A stretch of 64,000 nt of DNA, taken from the IMG/VR virus record IMGVR_UViG_3300008108_000011, positions 124,001-188,000 of that record; one strand, given 5' to 3'. The first letter of the stretch is position 1. Every line of letters begins with the position of its first letter. The notes under the pieces were generated by a model. The model was not told the DNA's origin. It saw nothing but the letters and a program-made list of their open reading frames with translations, and ran no database searches. Shown here piece after piece: positions 29,745 to 58,252 of this stretch. The stretch is from a virus. A program made the translations under genes and the position numbers.

Positions 29745-29945
29745 ATGGATACTATTGAAGTTGTAAATGCCATTCGTGATGGTAATCGTGTTCAAGCACT
29801 TGACAAAATTGCTGACATCCTCTACGGAAAAGCAGCAGAAGCAATGAAAGATTATAAGCAAACAGTTGCTCAAACATTTTTCGATCAACCTGAAGCTCCT
29901 GAAGAGGAGGTAGAAGAAACACCAGCAGAGGAACCACAACAATGA
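29745..29945 (+). CDS. 67: Prohead core protein, gp67-like
   Basis: A 66-residue protein with an N-terminal helix (MDTIEVVNAIRDGNRVQALD) and a Glu/Pro-rich acidic C-terminus. The pattern parallels T4 gp67 (N-terminal LIEAIKSND-type helix and acidic tail), and it holds the same place between portal and protease. gp67 is a prohead core component cleaved by gp21. The call depends on position plus pattern because the protein is short. It overlaps gp21 by 4 nt. Confidence 0.7.
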   Translation: MDTIEVVNAIRDGNRVQALDKIADILYGKAAEAMKDYKQTVAQTFFDQPEAPEEEVEETPAEEPQQ

Positions 29946-30586
29946 AACTAATCACCGAAGCAATTGAGGATATTCAAATCCTCGAAGAAGAAACCAACGG
30001 TAAAAAAAATCTTTACATTGAAGGTGTATTCCTTCAAGGAGATATTAAAAACCGCAACGGTCGTGTATATCCCTTTGGCGTTCTAGAACGCGAAGTTGGT
30101 AGATACACTGAACAGTATGTAAATGTTGGTCGTGCTCTCGGTGAACTAGGTCATCCTGATGGTCCTACTGTTAACTTGGATCGCGTGTCACATAAAATTG
30201 TTTCTCTAAAAGCAGAAGGTTCTAATTTTATTGGTAAAGCACAGATCCTAAATACTCCCATGGGAAACATTGCTAAGTCACTTTTGGAATCAGGAGTAAA
30301 GCTTGGCGTTTCTTCAAGGGGCATGGGTTCTATCGAAGAGAAGAACGGTGCCAATTATGTTCGTGATGATTTCATGCTTGCAACTGCTGCCGACATCGTA
30401 GCAGATCCCTCCGCACCTGACGCATTTGTGAACGGAATTATGGAAGGTAAAGAGTGGGTATGGGAAAATGGCATTATTAAGGAAGTTAATATTGCTAAAT
30501 ATCATAAGTATATTTCTGAATCTACCAGAAAAAATCTTGAGGAGAGGTCACTGAAAGCGTTCAGTCACTTCTTACAAAGTTTGTAA
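29942..30586 (+). CDS. 21: Prohead core protease gp21
   Basis: A 214-residue protein (T4 gp21 has 212). GELGHPDG (His71) and LGVSSRGMGS (Ser124 or Ser125) hold the catalytic His and Ser of the herpesvirus-assemblin-like prohead protease family, and the N-terminal NRNGRVYP is conserved. It matures the prohead by cleaving gp22, gp23 and gp67. It overlaps the gp67-like gene by 4 nt. Confidence 0.95.
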   Translation: MKLITEAIEDIQILEEETNGKKNLYIEGVFLQGDIKNRNGRVYPFGVLEREVGRYTEQYVNVGRALGELGHPDGPTVNLDRVSHKIVSLKAEGSNFIGKAQILNTPMGNIAKSLLESGVKLGVSSRGMGSIEEKNGANYVRDDFMLATAADIVADPSAPDAFVNGIMEGKEWVWENGIIKEVNIAKYHKYISESTRKNLEERSLKAFSHFLQSL

Positions 30587-44947: not shown

Positions 44948-45888
44948 TGAAAAACTTTTTGTGGGTGGAGGAGTATCGTCCTCGTAAAATCGAAGATTGT
45001 ATCCTCCCTGATTCGTTAAAGAAAGTATTTACTGGATTTGTAGAGCAGGGGGAGATTGCTAATCTCCTTCTGTCTGGTCCTCCTGGAGTTGGAAAGACTA
45101 CAGTTGCCAAAGCCCTGTGTGAAGAGATTGGTGCTTCATATATTGTTATCAACGGTTCGGATGAAGGTCGCTTCCTTGATACTATCCGAACCCGTGTCAA
45201 ACAGTTCGCCAGTTCTGTCAGTTTAACTGGCGCTGGCAAACACAAAGTCGTCATCATTGACGAGGCAGATAATACCACTCATGACGTTCAGCTATCTCTT
45301 CGCGCCTTCGTTGAAGAGTTCCATAGCAACTGTCGTTTCATTTTTACCTGCAACTTCATTAATAAAATCGTTGACCCCCTGCACTCCCGCTGCACGGTCG
45401 TTGATTTCCGCATCAAACCCGAGGAGCAGAAGAAGTTACAGGCGGCGTTCTTTGGGCGCTTACAGACGATCCTAGACGCCTCTGGCGTGGCGTATGAAGA
45501 CAAGGTGCTGGTCAAACTGATCCAACGCTACTACCCCGACTGGCGACGCCTGCTGAACGAAGCGCAGCGCCACTCTGCTGGTGGATCGTTGGATGCTGCA
45601 GTGCTCTGTGATATTGCTGATGTAAACCTAGACCAACTCATGCGAGCAATGAAAGCAAAGGAATACAAGGTCGTTCGTCAATGGGTTGTAGATAATATGG
45701 ATAGTGACCCTAATACTATCATTCGTAAAATTTATAATTCTCTGAGTGAATGTCTTGAAGGTTCTTCTATTCCTCCTGCTGTGTTGGTGTTGGCTAAGTA
45801 TCAGTATCAAATTGCGTTCGTAGCTGATCAAGAGATTAATATGCTTGCTTGTTTGACTGAAATTATGGTGGAGTGTAAGTTTAAATGA
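44947..45888 (+). CDS. 44: Clamp loader large subunit gp44
   Basis: The ATG at 44947 shares a base with the gp45 stop; a TTG at 44944 is less likely. It has 313 residues (T4 gp44 has 319), with Walker A GPPGVGKT (44-51), Walker B VVIIDEAD (101-108) and the SRC motif HSRCTVVDF. Four copies plus gp62 load the gp45 clamp. The stretch 45370-45600 is noticeably richer in G and C than the flanks. The stop codon overlaps the dam start by 4 nt. Confidence 0.95.
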   Translation: MKNFLWVEEYRPRKIEDCILPDSLKKVFTGFVEQGEIANLLLSGPPGVGKTTVAKALCEEIGASYIVINGSDEGRFLDTIRTRVKQFASSVSLTGAGKHKVVIIDEADNTTHDVQLSLRAFVEEFHSNCRFIFTCNFINKIVDPLHSRCTVVDFRIKPEEQKKLQAAFFGRLQTILDASGVAYEDKVLVKLIQRYYPDWRRLLNEAQRHSAGGSLDAAVLCDIADVNLDQLMRAMKAKEYKVVRQWVVDNMDSDPNTIIRKIYNSLSECLEGSSIPPAVLVLAKYQYQIAFVADQEINMLACLTEIMVECKFK

Positions 45889-46775
45889 AATCATTAAAGA
45901 CCCCTCTTCGTTATCCTGGCGGCAAATCTCGTGCCGTCAAGTATCTTATTCCTAAGATGCCTAAAGACATTACCGAATACCGTGAACCTTTTCTGGGTGG
46001 TGGTAGTGTAGCAATTGCGTTTACAAAAGAATACCCAGATATTCCTGTATGGGTGAATGATTTGTATGAACCATTGGTGAATTTCTGGCAGATGCTACAG
46101 AAGTCACCTGATGGTTTGTTCTGTTTACTGGAAGCATACAAGAATACATATGACACGCCAGGCAAAGCACGGGCATTGTTTGACGAAATGAAGATTCAAC
46201 TGAATAGTGCTGACACACCTAACCTCCAGAAAGCTGCTGCTTTTTATGTGGTCAACAAGTGTAGTTTCTCTGGTCTAACTGAATCATCTTCCTTCTCACC
46301 TCAAGCAAGTGATCATAACTTCACTATGCGTGGTATTACAAATCTTTCTAAGTATTCAGAACTGATTGAGAATTGGAAGATTACTTGTGGTTCATATTGG
46401 GATATGATGATGACATCTGCTCCTGTAGGAACGTTCTGGTTCTTTGACCCTCCTTATGATATCAAAGATAATCTTTATGGTAAGAAAGGAGAACTACATA
46501 AAGGATTCAATCACGAAGAGTTTCATGCTTGGATCACTCAGGGTAATGTAAAAGATCGCTGGATGATTACTTACAATACCAATCCAACTCTTATGGAGTG
46601 GTATGATGGTTATTATCAAACCAAATGGGATTTGACTTATACTATGCGTTCAGTAGGCGACTACATGAATGAGCAAAAAGACCGTGCTGAACTTTTGATT
46701 ACTAATTATGACGAAACCATCTCTAACGGAATATTTGAACTCAATAAATCAAACCAAGAAGTCGGTAGTTATTGA
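45885..46775 (+). CDS. dam: DNA adenine methyltransferase (Dam-like)
   Basis: A 296-residue N6-adenine methyltransferase of the D12 class. LRYPGGKSR (motif X), EPFLGGGSVAIAF (the SAM-binding FxGxG motif) and FFDPPYDI (DPPY, 188-191) are present in the D12 order. It lies between gp44 and gp62, where most T4-like phages have no gene. It is likely to methylate adenine, perhaps in GATC, to protect DNA from restriction; the target site is inferred. It overlaps gp44 by 4 nt and gp62 by 68 nt. Confidence 0.85.
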   Translation: MKSLKTPLRYPGGKSRAVKYLIPKMPKDITEYREPFLGGGSVAIAFTKEYPDIPVWVNDLYEPLVNFWQMLQKSPDGLFCLLEAYKNTYDTPGKARALFDEMKIQLNSADTPNLQKAAAFYVVNKCSFSGLTESSSFSPQASDHNFTMRGITNLSKYSELIENWKITCGSYWDMMMTSAPVGTFWFFDPPYDIKDNLYGKKGELHKGFNHEEFHAWITQGNVKDRWMITYNTNPTLMEWYDGYYQTKWDLTYTMRSVGDYMNEQKDRAELLITNYDETISNGIFELNKSNQEVGSY

Positions 46776-51378: not shown

Positions 51379-52407
51379 ATGAGTTTCCTACAATCTGTTA
51401 TTAAGGAGTTAGATAATGAGTTTGCAAGTGTGGCGGATGACGGAATCGCAACGGGCGATTGCGACGGTTTTGTTGATACAGGGAGCTATATTCTCAATGC
51501 TCTCATTAGCGGGAGCATCTATGGGGGGTTACCCTCCAACAAAATCACCGCGCTTGCTGGAGAATCCTCTACTGGTAAAACATTCTTTGCCCTCTCTATC
51601 GTCAAACATTTCTTAAATAGTAATCCTGAAGCACAGGTAATTTATTTTGAAACGGAATCTGCTGTCTCTAAAGACATGATGGTTTCGCGTGGGATCGATG
51701 TTAAACGTGTAGGTTTGGTTCCTGTTACTACTGTTCAAGAGTTTCGCACTCAGTCTATCAAAGTTGTAGATGAGTATATGAAACTTAAGAAAGAGGATAG
51801 ACCTCCGCTGCTTTTTGTGCTAGACTCTTTGGGGATGCTCTCCACCACGAAGGAGATTGACGATGCCACTGCTGGCAAGGAGACACGCGATATGACTCGC
51901 GCCCAGGTTATTAAATCGATCTTTAGGATTTTGTCACTGAAACTTGGGCAAGCTAGTATTCCTCTAATCGTTACCAACCATACATATGAAGTGGTTGGTG
52001 CCTATGTGCCAACTAAAGAGATGGGTGGTGGCACTGGTCTGAAGTATGCAGCGTCAACTATTCTCTTCCTGTCTAAGAAGAAAGAGAAAGATGGCACTGA
52101 AGTTGTAGGTAACATTATTAAAGTGAAGGCACAGAAGTCTCGCTTTACCAAAGAAAACTCAGATATCGAGACGAGGTTATTCTATGACGCACGGGGATTG
52201 GATAAGTATTATGGATTACTGGAGTTGGGTGAGAAATACGGAGTATTCCAACGTAAGGGGAATCGCGTGGTTGTTGGGGAATCTTCCGTTTATCCTTCTG
52301 TTATCCTTGCCGATCCTGAGAAGTATTTCACGCCAGAGATAATGCAAGCTTTAGATGAATGTGCCTGTAAAGAGTTTCTATATGGAGTAGTGGATGGAGA
52401 GAATTGA
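51379..52407 (+). CDS. uvsX: Recombinase UvsX (RecA-like)
   Basis: A 342-residue RecA/Rad51-family protein (T4 UvsX has 391). Walker A GESSTGKT is at 61-68, the catalytic ETESAVS near 95, and Walker [12 protein letters not shown] near 145. [10 protein letters not shown] near 216-225 is a conserved L2-region feature. It makes strand-exchange filaments with help from UvsY. It overlaps gp41 by 14 nt. Confidence 0.96.
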
Positions 52408-53776
52408 AACGACTATTTTACGCAACCTCCTGTGCAACGAACAGTTCTACAGGAAGGTTGTTCCTTTTGTAAAACCAGATTACTTCAATGAGATTCATGA
52501 ACGTGTAATCTATGAAGAGGTCTGGAACTTCGCAAGCACCTATGAGCTGGTGCCTACGAAAGAAGTATTAACTATCAACCTTGAAGCAAGAAAAGATTTA
52601 AATGAGGAAGTATATCAAAACGCAGTTAAAACAATTGCTGAGTTGTCTACCGATCCAATTGAATATAACTGGTTGCTCGACACCACAGAGAAGTGGTGTA
52701 AAGACAGAGCAATCTACCTCGCCTTGCTTGAGTCAATCAAGGTCGCGGATGGAGGTAATCCAAAAATATCAAAGGATGCGATTCCAGCAATCCTTCAAGA
52801 GGCCCTGGCAGTATCGTTCGATGAACACGTAGGTCACGATTATCTAGAGAATAGTGTAGAACGATATGAGTTCTATCATCGTGAAGAAGATAAGATTCCA
52901 TTTCACCTTGAATACTTCAATAAGATTACCAAAGGTGGTCTGCCAAACAAGACTCTTAACGTAGCTCTTGCTGGCACTGGTGTAGGTAAGTCACTCTTCA
53001 TGTGTGACCTTGCCGCTCATTGTTTATCTATGGGTCGCAATGTTCTCTACATAACTATGGAGATGGCAGAAGAAAAGATTGCTGAACGTATTGATGCTAA
53101 CCTGTTTAACGTCAATATCAAAGACCTTGTGGATTTGCCTGAGACAATCTTCCAAAGTCGCATCAATGAACTGAAGCGTAAAACTCAGGGTCGTCTTATC
53201 ATCAAAGAATATCCTACAGCATCAGCACATGTCGGTCACTTCAAATCTCTTCTTAACGAACTTCAACTCAAGAAGACGTTTAAACCAGATATCGTCTTTA
53301 TCGACTATCTTAACATCTGTGCTAGTGCGAGGTATAAAGGCGCTATCGTCAATTCCTATACTTATGTTAAAGCGATTGCTGAAGAACTACGCGGTCTTGC
53401 TGTGGAACACAATGTTCCTGTTGTCTCAGCGACGCAAACAACCCGTAGTGGTTTTGGCAATAGTGACGTGGATCTTACTGATACTTCGGAATCCTTTGGT
53501 CTACCTGCTACTGCTGACTTCATGTTTGCTCTTATATCGACGGAAGATTTGGAGAAGGATGGTAAAATTATGGTCAAGCAATTGAAGAACAGATACAATG
53601 ACCCTACTGCATATAAGAGATTTTTGGTTGGGGTTGACAGAGCAAGAATGAAGCTCTATAATGTTGATAACGCTGTTGACCTATCCTCTGATAAAGAAGA
53701 GGAGTATGATTTCGAAGAGATGGCAGCACAACAAAGCAAAGATACTAAAAGCAAATTTACCAGTTTTATTTTATGA
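52394..53776 (+). CDS. 41: Replicative helicase gp41 (DnaB-like)
   Basis: A 460-residue protein (T4 gp41 has 475). The N-terminal helical domain is followed by Walker A GTGVGKS (194-200), an [14 protein letters not shown] block, Walker B-like [11 protein letters not shown] near 300 and the arginine-finger region [11 protein letters not shown] near 350. It is the hexameric 5'-3' helicase of the primosome with gp61. It overlaps uvsX by 14 nt and the MazG-like gene by 4 nt. Confidence 0.96.
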
Positions 53777-54177
53777 CAATTGATTTTAATAAGTATGTTG
53801 AATTCGTTGGTTCTGTCACCAGCCCAGCGTCACGAGATACTGGAGAATTTATTCTTCGTATTAGTGATCTCAAATCTCAAGGTGTAGATATTCAACGTCT
53901 GATGACTGCTGCTTGTGGTATCACTGCCGAAGGCGGTGAGTTTACTGAGATTGTGAAAAAGATTGCTTTCCAAGGTAAACCTTATAACGAAGATAATGTC
54001 TTCCATATGAAGCGTGAACTTGGAGATATTCTTTGGTATATTGCTCAAGCATGTATCGCACTTGATATTTCGTTTGAAGAAATTGCTCAGATGAACTTTG
54101 AGAAACTGACTGCTCGATATCCAGAAGGAACTTTCAGTATTGAGCGAAGCGAAAAACGAGTTGCCAACGACGTATAA
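53773..54177 (+). CDS. mazG: MazG-like nucleotide pyrophosphohydrolase
   Basis: A 134-residue all-alpha protein with the metal-binding pairs E53xxE56 (TAEGGEFTE) and E82xxD85 (ELGDILWYI) of the MazG superfamily. Cyanophages commonly carry such a gene; proposed roles are dNTP sanitation or lowering of ppGpp. It overlaps gp41 by 4 nt. A terminator-like hairpin with a TAAATA loop follows. Confidence 0.8.
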   Translation: MTIDFNKYVEFVGSVTSPASRDTGEFILRISDLKSQGVDIQRLMTAACGITAEGGEFTEIVKKIAFQGKPYNEDNVFHMKRELGDILWYIAQACIALDISFEEIAQMNFEKLTARYPEGTFSIERSEKRVANDV

Positions 54178-54185
54178 ACTAATCG

Positions 54186-54217
54186 CCTCTTCTAAATAAT
54201 AGAAGGGGTATTTTTTT
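54186..54217 (+). terminator. Intrinsic terminator with late-promoter box in its loop
   Basis: CCTCTTCTA (54186-54194) pairs with TAGAAGGGG (54200-54208), 9 bp with one G-T pair and a 5-nt loop, followed after TA by seven T (54211-54217). It is the same design as the hairpin before gp13. Confidence 0.65.
54192..54199 (+). promoter_or_regulatory. Late-promoter-like CTAAATAA box in the hairpin
   Basis: CTAAATAA lies in the stem-loop, 22 nt before the next ATG, which has no ribosome-binding site. Confidence 0.4.
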
Positions 54218-54221
54218 AACT

Positions 54222-55478
54222 ATGGCTGGATTAACTTGGGGTCAGTTTAATAGAAGAGATAGATACAAAAGCAACTGGCGTGTAGTGTATGAACGCATGA
54301 AAAATAATTTACCATTCACTCTAGTTCAAAAAAGCACGACAGATTCTGAAGATGGTATACATGTATATTTTTCTAAAGTTGCTATAAGTATCCCTGCTAA
54401 AGTTAATGGTAGATATAAGAAAGATAATATTTTTCTGGATTTAGAACCAAAAAGATTTTCTACCTTTGAAAATTTTTACCGAGAAGTTAAAAAAATTATT
54501 CCTGATAGTATGGTATCTGAAGGTGCGGGAGTTCCAATAACTTTAATATTTTTGCCATCAAGAAATTCCCCAATAAGAAATGGAACAAACACAAATCAGA
54601 TATTGAAAGATTTGGATTTTGGTGGTAGACCTTTGAACGGTCAAGTTAGAAATATATTTTGGGGCAATCTAAAATATTATGTTGATAATGTAGATTCCAC
54701 TTATAAGTTAAACTATCCAACCGCTACTGAAGCGGGGGAAGCAGATTTTATTAATACTTTCAATCAGGAACTGGATGCCATACTTAAAAAAACAGGATTG
54801 TCGTCTATAGATTTAATGGTTGGTAATACAACTTTTGAAAATATTGTTGGTGTTAATAAAGTAGAAGGAACAGTTAAAGCAGACCTAGCATTGGTTGCTT
54901 TAGAAAAAGGAAAGTTGAATGACGTTGGGTGGTTCTCACACAAGCAAGGTAATGTAGCATCTGATTTTCAACAATGGGGTGGTGTTACTCACTATGCTTC
55001 TGACAAACTTGGCGCTGATGAAACATTAGATAAGTTTCCTGAGATTAGAGCATTTGCAAAATATATGGCTTTTTGGTGTGGAAATGGAATGCAGTATGAT
55101 TTAAAAAGTTCTAATGGAGTTGGGTTTACTGCAGTGGCAGAGATAGAAGATAACGATTTAAAAATGGAATCTGTTTACGGCAAAAATTTTGGATCTTCTA
55201 AGTATGGAGTATCAAATTGTAATGGAGTATTACAGGGTTCTCCATCTATTAAAAAAGTGGGGAACAAATATAAATTAGAAATGTCGTCACATATTGTAAT
55301 GAATCCAACCGCCATGACTGGCGGGTATGAACCTGTGTTGATGCTCATAAACAAGGGAGACAGGTCGCAGTATGGGATCCCAGGTGCTAGAATAGCGGTG
55401 CAGCCACGGGCGAGCAGGAAAGCAAAGTTCATCGTGTCTAAAGATCGCAACGGAAACTATCAGATGAATCCAGCATGA
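54222..55478 (+). CDS. Hypothetical protein, possible PD-(D/E)xK-like nuclease
   Basis: A 418-residue protein of unrecognised family. It has a Glu-containing helix (EADFINTFNQEL near 177-188), KADLALVAL near 218 and GWFSHKQGNVASDFQQWGG near 235-253. A Glu helix, an Asp strand and an x-x-Lys strand in this order recall the PD-(D/E)xK nuclease core, with Ser in place of the usual acid before His-Lys. This is weak evidence. No signal peptide or membrane helix is seen. The gene has no clear ribosome-binding site after the terminator T-run, and it overlaps the next gene by 4 nt. Confidence 0.45.
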   Translation: MAGLTWGQFNRRDRYKSNWRVVYERMKNNLPFTLVQKSTTDSEDGIHVYFSKVAISIPAKVNGRYKKDNIFLDLEPKRFSTFENFYREVKKIIPDSMVSEGAGVPITLIFLPSRNSPIRNGTNTNQILKDLDFGGRPLNGQVRNIFWGNLKYYVDNVDSTYKLNYPTATEAGEADFINTFNQELDAILKKTGLSSIDLMVGNTTFENIVGVNKVEGTVKADLALVALEKGKLNDVGWFSHKQGNVASDFQQWGGVTHYASDKLGADETLDKFPEIRAFAKYMAFWCGNGMQYDLKSSNGVGFTAVAEIEDNDLKMESVYGKNFGSSKYGVSNCNGVLQGSPSIKKVGNKYKLEMSSHIVMNPTAMTGGYEPVLMLINKGDRSQYGIPGARIAVQPRASRKAKFIVSKDRNGNYQMNPA

Positions 55479-56686
55479 GCAAGAACACTCACCTCGAACA
55501 CTTAGAAGACAGCATCTTGTTTGATGGCAAAGAAGGCGCTAATGATGCGTTTGCTTTTCTTGATGCTCTTACTAAAACTTTTAGCGGAACTCAAACCAGC
55601 AACTTTAAAATCACTACTAAGTGGGATGGTGCTCCTGCTGTAATTTGTGGTGAAGATCCAGAGAACGGTCAGTTTTTTGTTGGAACTAAATCTGTTTTTA
55701 ATAAGACTGAACCCAAGATTAACTACACTGATTATCATATTGAAGCAAACCATGGCAACTCTTCTGGTCTGGTAGAGAAACTTAAAGTAGCACTGGAACA
55801 TTTTCCTAAGCTGGGAATCAAAGGAATCATTCAGGGAGACTTGTTGTTTACCGATGATGCTAAAGAAGAGAAGATTGATGGTGTAGATTATCTCACGTTT
55901 ACTCCTAACACTATCACCTATGCTATTCCGAAAGGAACTGACGCATACAAAAAAGCAAAGCGAGCCAAGATTGGTGTAGTGTTTCACACTCGCTACGTTG
56001 GTTCTAGCATTGCAACTTCTAACGCTACGTTCGGTGTTGACATCAGTAAGTTTAATAATACTAATGATGTCTTTGTAATCAGTGCTGAGGTAGATACTCT
56101 TGGTAGTAATATGATTCTTAATGCAACCGAGAAGAGAAATCTTAATAACATGAAGAGAACTGCTCCCGCTGCTCTTCGTAATGCTGGTGCGTTCTTGGAT
56201 GAGATTTCGCAACAGATTAACTCCAAAGATAATTTTAGTGTTGGAACTCGTCTTAAAACTTACTTCAACACTTATGTAAGAGAAGGTAAGCGTATCAGTA
56301 ATGTTAATCGTTTTATCGATGACTTCAAGAATGCTTATCATGAAACCATGATGAAGGAAGTTAACAAAGTGAAGCAGGAGAAGACCAAGGCTGCTAAACT
56401 GAAGAAACTCTATGATGGTATCGAGTTTGTGGATTCCAACATCGCTGGATTCAAAGCAACGATTACTCTCTATGTTATTCTTCAGAATGCTAAAAATATG
56501 TTTGTGAAGAAACTGGAATCTGCTGATAGCACTCGCACGTTTCTTCGCACTGATGATGGATTCCGTGTTACTGCCCCTGAAGGATTTGTTGCTATTAAAG
56601 ATGGAAATGCTACCAAGCTTGTTGATCGTCTTGAGTTTAGTTTGGCAAACTTTACTCTCGCAAAGAACTGGGTAAAGGGAAACTAA
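55475..56686 (+). CDS. KxDG nucleotidyltransferase/ligase-like protein (DUF6267-like)
   Basis: A 403-residue protein with TTKWDGAPAVICG (Lys49-Trp-Asp-Gly52), the motif I of covalent nucleotidyltransferases (ligases and capping enzymes). FFVGTKS, KGIIQGDLLFT and KIGVVFHTRY follow in the order expected for motifs Ia, III and IV. The C-terminal half is helical. It resembles the DUF6267 group of marine phage proteins. A ligase-like activity on RNA, DNA or protein is inferred; a motif V lysine pair was not identified with confidence. Its stop codon is in a CTAAATA box. Confidence 0.6.
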   Translation: MSKNTHLEHLEDSILFDGKEGANDAFAFLDALTKTFSGTQTSNFKITTKWDGAPAVICGEDPENGQFFVGTKSVFNKTEPKINYTDYHIEANHGNSSGLVEKLKVALEHFPKLGIKGIIQGDLLFTDDAKEEKIDGVDYLTFTPNTITYAIPKGTDAYKKAKRAKIGVVFHTRYVGSSIATSNATFGVDISKFNNTNDVFVISAEVDTLGSNMILNATEKRNLNNMKRTAPAALRNAGAFLDEISQQINSKDNFSVGTRLKTYFNTYVREGKRISNVNRFIDDFKNAYHETMMKEVNKVKQEKTKAAKLKKLYDGIEFVDSNIAGFKATITLYVILQNAKNMFVKKLESADSTRTFLRTDDGFRVTAPEGFVAIKDGNATKLVDRLEFSLANFTLAKNWVKGN

Positions 56687-56689
56687 ATA
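56683..56689 (+). promoter_or_regulatory. Late-promoter-like CTAAATA box
   Basis: CTAAATA includes the preceding TAA stop (56684-56686) and ends 9 nt before the next ATG, which may be too close for use by that gene. Confidence 0.25.
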
Positions 56690-56698
56690 CTAATAAAA

Positions 56699-57253
56699 AT
56701 GTTTAAGAGAGTAGTCATTACTTTCGGTCGCTTCAATCCTCCTACCATTGGTCATGAAAAACTCATTGATGCTGTAGCAAGAATTGCTGGAACCGATGAC
56801 TATAAAATCTATACCAGTCATACCAAAGACAAGAAGAAGAATCCTCTATCTTCCGAACAGAAAGTAGGATACATGAAAAAGATGTTTCCGAAACATAAAA
56901 ATAATATTATGCTTGATACTGATCTGAAGACAATCATTAAAGTTCTTCAGAGTTTGCAGGGTGAATATTCGGATCTTACTCTTGTAGTTGGCAGTGATCG
57001 TGTGCAGGAAATGGATACTTTGATCCAACGTTATAATGGAACAGAGTATACATTTAGAACTCTTGAAACAAAATCTGCTGGCGAAAGAGATCCTGATGCT
57101 GACGGAGCAACTGGAATGTCTGCTAGTAAAATGAGAGAAGCAGCAACTAATGCAAACGTTGCTGAGTTTCGTAAAGGTATACCATCTACTTTAGACGATA
57201 AAGAAATGATGAAATTAATGACAGACGTTAGAGAAGGGTTGGGTATTAAATGA
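56699..57253 (+). CDS. HxGH-type nucleotidyltransferase
   Basis: A 184-residue protein with GRFNPPTIGH (10-19), a variant of the GxFxPxHxGH motif, then LVVGSDR (95-101) and GMSASKMR (139-146), equivalent to ISSTxxR. Together these define the cytidylyltransferase-like fold used by NMN adenylyltransferase, phosphopantetheine adenylyltransferase and glycerol-phosphate cytidylyltransferase. The first His of the usual HxGH is Thr here (TIGH), as in some phage homologues. The substrate is not predictable. It overlaps the next gene by 4 nt. Confidence 0.75.
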   Translation: MFKRVVITFGRFNPPTIGHEKLIDAVARIAGTDDYKIYTSHTKDKKKNPLSSEQKVGYMKKMFPKHKNNIMLDTDLKTIIKVLQSLQGEYSDLTLVVGSDRVQEMDTLIQRYNGTEYTFRTLETKSAGERDPDADGATGMSASKMREAATNANVAEFRKGIPSTLDDKEMMKLMTDVREGLGIK

Positions 57254-57537
57254 AATCACTTAAAGAACTGTTAGCACAATCAAAACAAAAATCTTATATG
57301 CTTGGCAATGTATTTGCTGAGGGTGATTGGATTCAAAATTCTAATGGTGAAGCGGGAAGAATTCATCGCCGTGGAGTCAATTATGTTATTGCTGTAACAG
57401 AAGAAGGTAAAATGTTTCGTGCTTGGGTGAAAGATATTAAAGAACATTGTGGGTGTGAAGATAAAAATATGACAGATAAGGAGAAAGTCAAGTCATTTAT
57501 AAATAAAAATAAACGACAAAAGAACAATGACAATTGA
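57250..57537 (+). CDS. Hypothetical small protein
   Basis: A 95-residue protein with a central beta-rich part (GDWIQNSNGEAGRIHRRG, then NYVIAVTEEGKMFRAWVKDI) that resembles a KOW- or SH3-type barrel, and a Lys/Asn-rich tail. HCGCED contains two Cys. The function is unknown. It overlaps both neighbours by 4-11 nt, which suggests translational coupling in the operon that starts at 56699. Confidence 0.5.
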   Translation: MKSLKELLAQSKQKSYMLGNVFAEGDWIQNSNGEAGRIHRRGVNYVIAVTEEGKMFRAWVKDIKEHCGCEDKNMTDKEKVKSFINKNKRQKNNDN

Positions 57538-58252
57538 CGAGTTTTCAAAAAGTCTAATTCAAGCGGCAGTTGCTGAGTTAGATGAAGCATGGGAAAAGCC
57601 TGAGAAAGAAGAGAAGGGAGAGAAAAAGCATACTGAAGGCAAGGATGAAGAGAAAAAAGAATTAAAAAAAGAAGCAAGAGACATGCCTGGCAATCAAGAG
57701 AAGATTGATGCCAATAAGAATGGTAAAGTAGATGCTCATGATTTTGCACTTCTTCGTGCTAGAAAGGGCAAGAAGTCAGTTAAGGAAATGTGGGAGAAGG
57801 CAGCAGAGGTTCAGGAAGGTTGGGCTAAAAAAAAAGCCGTAGATGAGGGCAAGAAAGTAGAAATCGAAATCATGCCTCAGGTTGATACTCCTAACGATCC
57901 AGAACCACCTACAGGAAAGAAAGCAAAGAAAGAAGTTAAGAAAGAAGAGTTTGCTGCTGAAGGTAAGAACAAGGAAGGTAAGGAGCAAGGTGCTGACGGC
58001 AAAGCTTGCTGGAAAGGATATAAGTATGCTGGCACAGAGAATGGTAAAGACAAGTGTGTGAAGGCAGGATATGAAATGGAAGGTGGCGAAGAACTTCAAG
58101 AGAAGCGTCTTTCTGCTAAAGAAAAAGCAAAGAAAGAAAAGTTTGTTAAGGGCATGAAGAAGAAGTTCAGTTCTTTCAAGTCTAAGTATGGTGCTAAAGC
58201 AAAAGATGTGATGTATGGAACTGCCACCTCGATGGCAAAGAAAGCAGCCTAA
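57527..58252 (+). CDS. Lys/Glu-rich protein with an EF-hand-like loop
   Basis: A 241-residue, very highly charged protein. Residues 61-72 (DANKNGKVDAHD) fit an EF-hand or dockerin-type calcium loop: Asp61, Asn63, Asn65, Gly66, Asp69, Asp72. The rest is Lys/Glu-rich, with a DGKACWKGYKYAGT-type motif near 155-168 that recurs in cyanophage proteins. It may be an internal head or DNA-associated protein. No enzymatic motif is seen. Confidence 0.5.
   Translation: MTIDEFSKSLIQAAVAELDEAWEKPEKEEKGEKKHTEGKDEEKKELKKEARDMPGNQEKIDANKNGKVDAHDFALLRARKGKKSVKEMWEKAAEVQEGWAKKKAVDEGKKVEIEIMPQVDTPNDPEPPTGKKAKKEVKKEEFAAEGKNKEGKEQGADGKACWKGYKYAGTENGKDKCVKAGYEMEGGEELQEKRLSAKEKAKKEKFVKGMKKKFSSFKSKYGAKAKDVMYGTATSMAKKAA

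Follow-up and report, generated by a model that had tools for sequence, protein, structure and literature searches.

What common task could be served by a nuclease-like, a ligase-like and a nucleotidyltransferase-like protein that are encoded side by side in a marine T4-like phage? The question is raised by positions 54,222 to 57,253 of the window, i.e. the whole stretch of 64,000 nucleotides analysed here, which represents positions 124,001 to 188,000 of the IMG/VR virus record IMGVR_UViG_3300008108_000011 (192,732 bases, with a T4-like gene order of the cyanophage type). Three open reading frames (ORFs) follow mazG and a terminator-like hairpin at exactly the coordinates given in the original prediction, all on the + strand. 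The first position of the set (slot 1; 54222..55478) encodes a putative PD-(D/E)xK protein of 418 residues, the second (55475..56686, overlapping the first by 4 nt) a DUF6267 protein of 403 residues, and the third (56699..57253) an HxGH-type nucleotidyltransferase of 184 residues. We propose, with somewhat better than even confidence, that they form a conserved nucleic-acid processing cassette of T4-like phages, the products of which are packaged in the head and co-injected in many relatives. The proposal builds on observed gene order, motif conservation, capsid-targeting N-terminal tags and prohead-protease genes, and on the published detection of HxGH proteins in virions.

The middle gene product is a full-length member of Pfam family DUF6267 (PF19782; E 3.5e-127), which corresponds to the cyanophage cluster T4-GC 71 and to which no function has been assigned. 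In an alignment of 101 proteins, with relatives 24-70% identical to the window protein, residues K49, D51, G52, K72, D122, H171, E369, G370, K381 and R385 are invariant (101/101). These include the Lys, Asp and Gly of the KWDG motif at Lys49 that had originally been taken as ligase-like; the scenario of an unconserved lysine, considered there as well, does not apply. The window protein contains K49-x-D-G52, D122, E369-G370-x-V372 and K381-x-V-x-R385, which correspond in order and character to ligase motifs I (KxDG), III, IV (EGxV) and V. The span from E369 to K381 is 12 residues, and 13 residues lie between the matching positions of T4 Rnl1. A confident AlphaFold model (predicted local distance difference test, pLDDT, 92.3) places the motifs on or beside strands, in the order known from ligases, and contains a helical insertion (about residues 217-350) ahead of motif IV. 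When this model was compared with the PDB by Foldseek, human DNA ligase I ranked at the top (E 0.098, below significance), with ligase IV, archaeal ligases, REL1, T4 Rnl2, a Naegleria RNA ligase and capping enzymes among the lower matches. In a viral structure library DUF6267 relatives came first, followed by several RNA ligases from giant viruses that did not reach significance. PDB chains, searched by sequence and by profile, gave nothing meaningful. DUF6267 thus shares KxDG, an acidic motif III, EGxV and the motif V lysine, in this order, with DNA ligase I, T4 Rnl1 and Rnl2, REL1 and capping enzymes, but differs from such covalent nucleotidyltransferases in its long insertion, in KxVxR instead of KxK at motif V and in the lack of an oligonucleotide/oligosaccharide-binding (OB) domain, and its structural matches to them are weak. 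We consider it very probable that the family has the covalent-nucleotidyltransferase fold.

The slot-1 protein of the window is a predicted restriction-endonuclease-like PD-(D/E)xK protein, as judged from profiles, motif conservation and a structural model. It contains a nuclease-type motif, K219-x-D221 ... S239-H-K241, in which D221 is conserved in 56/56, K241 in 55/56 and S239 in 53/56 aligned proteins. The PADLOC profile REase_II PDLC03396 matches residues 215-345 (E 2.2e-6), and a second restriction-enzyme profile, PDLC03459, matches 46 of the 56 aligned proteins (best 4e-16). Profiles and motif conservation are independent evidence of the nuclease-like character that had been suggested as a possibility. 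The AlphaFold model (pLDDT 92.4) has a helix-strand-strand-strand core at 171-241 that bears D221 and S239-H-K241, with D ... S-x-K on the neighbouring strands 222-228 and 231-241. Its top PDB fold match is MspI (E 0.3, not significant), and sequence and profile searches against PDB chains again gave nothing meaningful. Both the profile matches over D...S-x-K and the core are shared with type II restriction and nicking endonucleases (PD-(D/E)xK), from which the protein differs by a serine at the place of the usual Asp/Glu, by the absence of an adjacent methyltransferase, by its ligase-like neighbour and by the tag in relatives. Restriction-modification is a weak reading of the set, as the presence of methyltransferase genes varies.

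Elsewhere in phages, slot 1 is occupied by proteins without detectable similarity to that of the window. These occupants were grouped into 28 clusters, of which at least two (4 and 6) appear to be structural genes that only happen to be located upstream; many others carry D..SLK, D..EIK, D..EVK or D..ELK. The nuclease motif pattern, as defined on inspected sequences, was found in 15/28 cluster representatives compared with 18/117 control clusters (Fisher p 6e-5). A Pfam scan of slot-1 proteins of other families yielded no meaningful match; an unrelated family in this slot (L313) matches a different REase_II profile at 1e-9.

The third protein matches PF01467 (E 3.1e-8; 34.3 bits, cut-off 21) and phrog_3041 (E 2.1e-66), and is named 'cytitidyltransferase' in cyanophages. 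It has the motifs GR-x-N-P-x-T-x-GH and S-x-S-K-x-R, and residues G10, R11, N13, P14, G18, H19, G98, D100, R101, S141 and R146 are each conserved in 41/41 proteins, which bears out the earlier description of a cytidylyltransferase-like protein with GRFNPPTIGH, VVGSDR and SASKMR. Its top NCBIfam matches are adenylyltransferases of nicotinamide mononucleotide (NMN) or nicotinate mononucleotide (NaMN), all far under curated cut-offs; the NMN adenylyltransferase (NMNAT) equivalog TIGR00482, for example, gives 30 bits against a cut-off of 112.45. Only weak matches were obtained with PDB chains in sequence and profile searches.

The three genes are linked well beyond the window. Among 80 metagenomic loci found with slot 1 as seed, 65 contain DUF6267, in 39 cases within 200 bases of slot 1, and several of the remaining 15 loci stop shortly after slot 1; with the DUF6267 protein of the window as seed, an HxGH gene was located at most 200 bases away in 77/80 loci, these loci not being independent, as many are closely related. 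The order nuclease, DUF6267, HxGH is also present in Synechococcus and Prochlorococcus phages, Pelagibacter phage HTVC008M, Stenotrophomonas phage DLP6 and Vibrio phage EniLVp02. In addition, S-PM2 and uncultured phages encode DUF6267-HxGH fusion proteins, and phrog_455 covers both parts. On the neighbourhood counts we reject the idea that the trio arose by chance, and the lack of a shared genomic association that the original prediction had allowed for was not found. Exceptions are phiN3, with slot 1 and a distant HxGH-like protein but without DUF6267 (gp360, which was suspected to be this protein, was checked and is not one), ACG-2014f, in which DUF6267 and the HxGH gene are far apart (two isolates read), and one locus (L191) with a different order. 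The DUF6267 profile matches nothing in T4, in agreement with the earlier remark that the set has no T4 equivalent at this place.

Some individual loci show variations. In EniLVp02, the gene 3' of DUF6267 (L088:4999-5886), annotated as 'DNA helicase', encodes a UvsW.1 domain and, C-terminal to it, an HxGH-type nucleotidyltransferase domain, and was therefore counted as the third cassette gene. The jumbo phages K64-1 and phAPEC6 (L089:3480-4531 and L090:3471-4522) have, without DUF6267, an HxGH relative immediately 3' of a gene for a DNA adenine methyltransferase. In the S-PM2 record AJ630128 (L096:3995-5774), DUF6267 appears as an ORF of 192 residues followed by a 'cytitidyltransferase' of 390 residues that matches the remainder of DUF6267. 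The DUF6267 match is unbroken in the later S-PM2 record LN828717, and a fused protein of 591 residues is present in BFVD; the split is likely to be a frameshift or sequencing error.

Many relatives of these proteins carry an N-terminus of the kind that directs T4 proteins into the capsid. A 10-residue N-terminal tag loads the T4 internal proteins into the prohead, residues 4 and 7 driving targeting, and residues 8 and 10 driving cleavage by gp21 after L/I-x-E (PMC9026906). DUF6267 relatives start, for instance, with MYSFKQYLNE/AKNTHLEH or MLSFKTFITE/EKNTH (the slash follows the Glu of this rule), and across 134 distinct N-termini the consensus ahead of the conserved KNTHxxH is F-K-x-(F/Y)-(L/I)-T-E. 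With a fixed pattern in the T4 register, a tag was found on 113/231 DUF6267, 72/251 HxGH and 42/214 slot-1 proteins, compared with 59/1240 other ORFs and 0/41 MazG proteins; the resulting p-values (1e-59, 4e-26 and 7e-12, respectively) are far too optimistic given the relatedness of the sequences. All three cassette proteins are tagged in 13 loci, and DLP6 AAY80_066 is an example of a tagged DUF6267 protein. In T4 the pattern selects 4/267 ORFs, two of which start with MKTYQEFIAEA and agree in size with IPII and IPIII. A gp21-type prohead protease gene is present in 5/5 genomes searched. That of the window's phage lies at 29942-30586 (PF03420, record positions 153999-154442), so the protease expected to trim capsid tags is encoded by this phage.

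HxGH proteins have moreover been detected in published virion proteomes. S-SZBM1_140 (PMC9146016) adjoins DUF6267 in its genome and starts with MRFRQFIIE/A. A second example is ORF154 of S-CREM2 (PMC10665884), and NMNAT-like proteins, taken here irrespective of their gene neighbours, were found in virions of S-SCSM1 and S-CBWM1 (PMC9602691). In a relative of the window's phage (G001; 37314-41234 and 96556-98106), further tag-like N-termini, MKSFKSYIKE, MKSFKKFVAE and MKTFSKLLSE, could be identified (L348, L349, L351), and these proteins are candidates for other head-internal proteins on the basis of their sequences.

For catalysis, substrates, cofactor coupling and injection we infer the following course. 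The slot-1 nuclease would cut or nick DNA, be it that of the host, of a competitor or the phage's own ends. DUF6267, as a divergent KxDG enzyme, would accept a nucleotidyl group, most likely AMP, on Lys49 and pass it in a ligase-like manner to a nucleic-acid end, so that ends would be adenylylated and then sealed or capped. The HxGH enzyme would use a small molecule with a phosphate group as the recipient of a nucleotide, perhaps making NAD+ from NMN, and could supply or regenerate a cofactor; if DUF6267 used NAD+, the NMN released could be restored to NAD+ by an NMNAT, a coupling that we raise as a hypothesis only. In the many relatives with tags, the proteins would enter the prohead, lose their tags to the gp21-type protease and be injected alongside the phage DNA; their targets, as infection begins, would be nucleic acids of the host or of the phage. 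We further suggest, as a tentative idea well short of an even chance, that DUF6267 is a new lysine-adenylylating ligase-type family, the sole one in many T4-like cyanophages, which together with an exchangeable restriction-type nuclease and the HxGH enzyme makes up a toolset; packed into the heads of many phages and injected, this set would cut the DNA of the host and repair or cap that of the phage.

Several observations weigh against the proposed packaged cassette. Neither the DUF6267 nor the slot-1 model has a significant structural match in the PDB, and ligases are mixed with unrelated folds such as carbonic anhydrases in the DUF6267 list. Comparison of DUF6267 by hhalign with T4 gp30-type ligases and Rnl2 was negative, with tiny ligase profiles of three sequences and one sequence, respectively. 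The patterns for the nuclease motif and for the tag were both written after inspection of sequences, and the tag counts are drawn from related sequences. The tag pattern matches none of the window's own three proteins; the packaging claim therefore concerns relatives and is unsupported for the phage of the window. Finally, the S-CREM2 authors (PMC10665884) point out that soluble proteins may be carried over into virion preparations, and the published virion list of S-SZBM1 (PMC9146016) includes neither its DUF6267 nor its slot-1 protein.

An alternative is that DUF6267 works unpackaged with its replisome neighbours as the replication and repair ligase that T4-like cyanophages otherwise lack, the nuclease and HxGH proteins being repair accessories. 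Indeed, Pfam matches to the DNA ligase families PF01068 and PF01653 and the RNA ligase family PF09414 are absent from the genome of the window and from eight other DUF6267 records (six of them from cyanophages; some records may be incomplete), and within the favoured reading, too, DUF6267 could thus double as a general cyanophage ligase. The cassette adjoins gp41 and MazG and lies near UvsX and DNA polymerase, and the DUF6267 proteins of the window and of many cyanophages are untagged. However, DLP6, EniLVp02 and G001 possess a canonical PF01068 ligase, as does T4, in their case in addition to DUF6267, the tag is common on DUF6267 of other phages, the host ligase may equally serve cyanophages, and no OB domain could be accommodated downstream of motif V in the DUF6267 model. 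We regard this alternative as unlikely.

A set for the repair of tRNAs that host defence nucleases have cleaved, with a purpose like that of T4 Pnkp and Rnl1, would agree with the RNA ligases among the weak structural matches of DUF6267 and with the RNA-repair sets known in phages (PMC7824862). It appears improbable in view of the resemblance of slot 1 to a DNA restriction enzyme, the top rank of DNA ligase I among the structural matches, and the profile scans of the cassette, which recognised neither a polynucleotide kinase nor a phosphatase gene. Slightly less probable still is a set centred on NAD, in which the HxGH protein, as an NMNAT, would replenish NAD+ in the infected cell, with the other two genes as passengers: close linkage and the DUF6267-HxGH fusions speak against passengers, and no further NAD enzyme was detected among the adjacent genes scanned. 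The NMN/NaMN adenylyltransferases, which are the best NCBIfam matches of the HxGH protein, fall short of their cut-offs, as given above, and the authors of the virion studies also interpret this protein as an NMNAT (PMC10665884, PMC9602691). Of the original idea of a cut, adenylylate/ligate and nucleotide-cofactor set, the three biochemical assignments and the linkage hold, and it is supported in part; RNA repair, DNA repair and NAD salvage are candidate purposes.

The cassette parts belong to, or resemble, known superfamilies, and parallels for their proposed delivery exist. Many relatives share the ten-residue tag register and the L/I-x-E rule with the capsid-targeted, injected T4 proteins IPI-IPIII and Alt, whereas the cassette consists of three enzyme-like proteins unrelated to the internal proteins, and the copies in the window are untagged. 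Chlorovirus PBCV-1 packages restriction enzymes that are presumed to degrade host DNA within minutes (PMC7019647); delivery of a restriction-type nuclease with viral DNA is thus published for that virus and only proposed for cassette phages. PBCV-1 is an unrelated virus, and its restriction enzymes have methyltransferase partners. We know of no ligase-like or HxGH partner of these packaged enzymes. The ligase-type motifs of DUF6267, the cassette and its tags are proposed in this analysis; in the literature searched, which was without most subscription journals, DUF6267 is not mentioned and no earlier report of the family assignment, the cassette or the tag on it was found. DUF6267 and its HxGH partner are widespread in abundant T4-like cyanophages, where they are annotated with no or doubtful function. 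If our proposal is true, DUF6267 is a candidate for the ligase seemingly absent from these phages, the recurrence of 'cytidyltransferase' in cyanophage virions would have a reason, and the T4 concept of injected head proteins would be widened to a multi-enzyme nucleic-acid set.

Upstream of the cassette, the gene at 52394-53776 occupies the place of the gp41 helicase gene of relatives and precedes mazG (53773-54177; PF03819, E 6.4e-9). Between mazG and slot 1, a pattern scan identified a terminator-like hairpin on the + strand (54185..54209) with a 10-pair stem followed by a T run (ATTTTTTT). A late promoter (CTAAATA) 5' of slot 1 was dropped as a candidate, because the motif sits within this hairpin; its 10 copies in 64 kb are also close to our own estimate of the chance level. 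Directly downstream, on the + strand, a 95-residue protein (57250..57537; phrog_4808, E 3.5e-20, and phrog_395) is the equivalent of the C-terminal domain of longer HxGH proteins elsewhere in cyanophages, as in S-CAM9, the HxGH protein of which is matched by it in its C-terminal part. Its start, MKSLKELLAQ, is possibly a weak variant of the capsid tag, judging from these residues. The next gene (57527-58252) encodes a 241-residue protein rich in lysine and glutamate, with a weak dockerin/EF-hand-like stretch (DANKNGKVDAHDF); its positional counterpart S-SZBM1_139 has been detected in virions. A MethyltransfD12 (Dam-type) DNA methyltransferase gene at 45885-46775 is the sole candidate self-protection gene of that family in this genome, and a PF01555 methyltransferase is encoded outside the window, at record positions 74326-75141.

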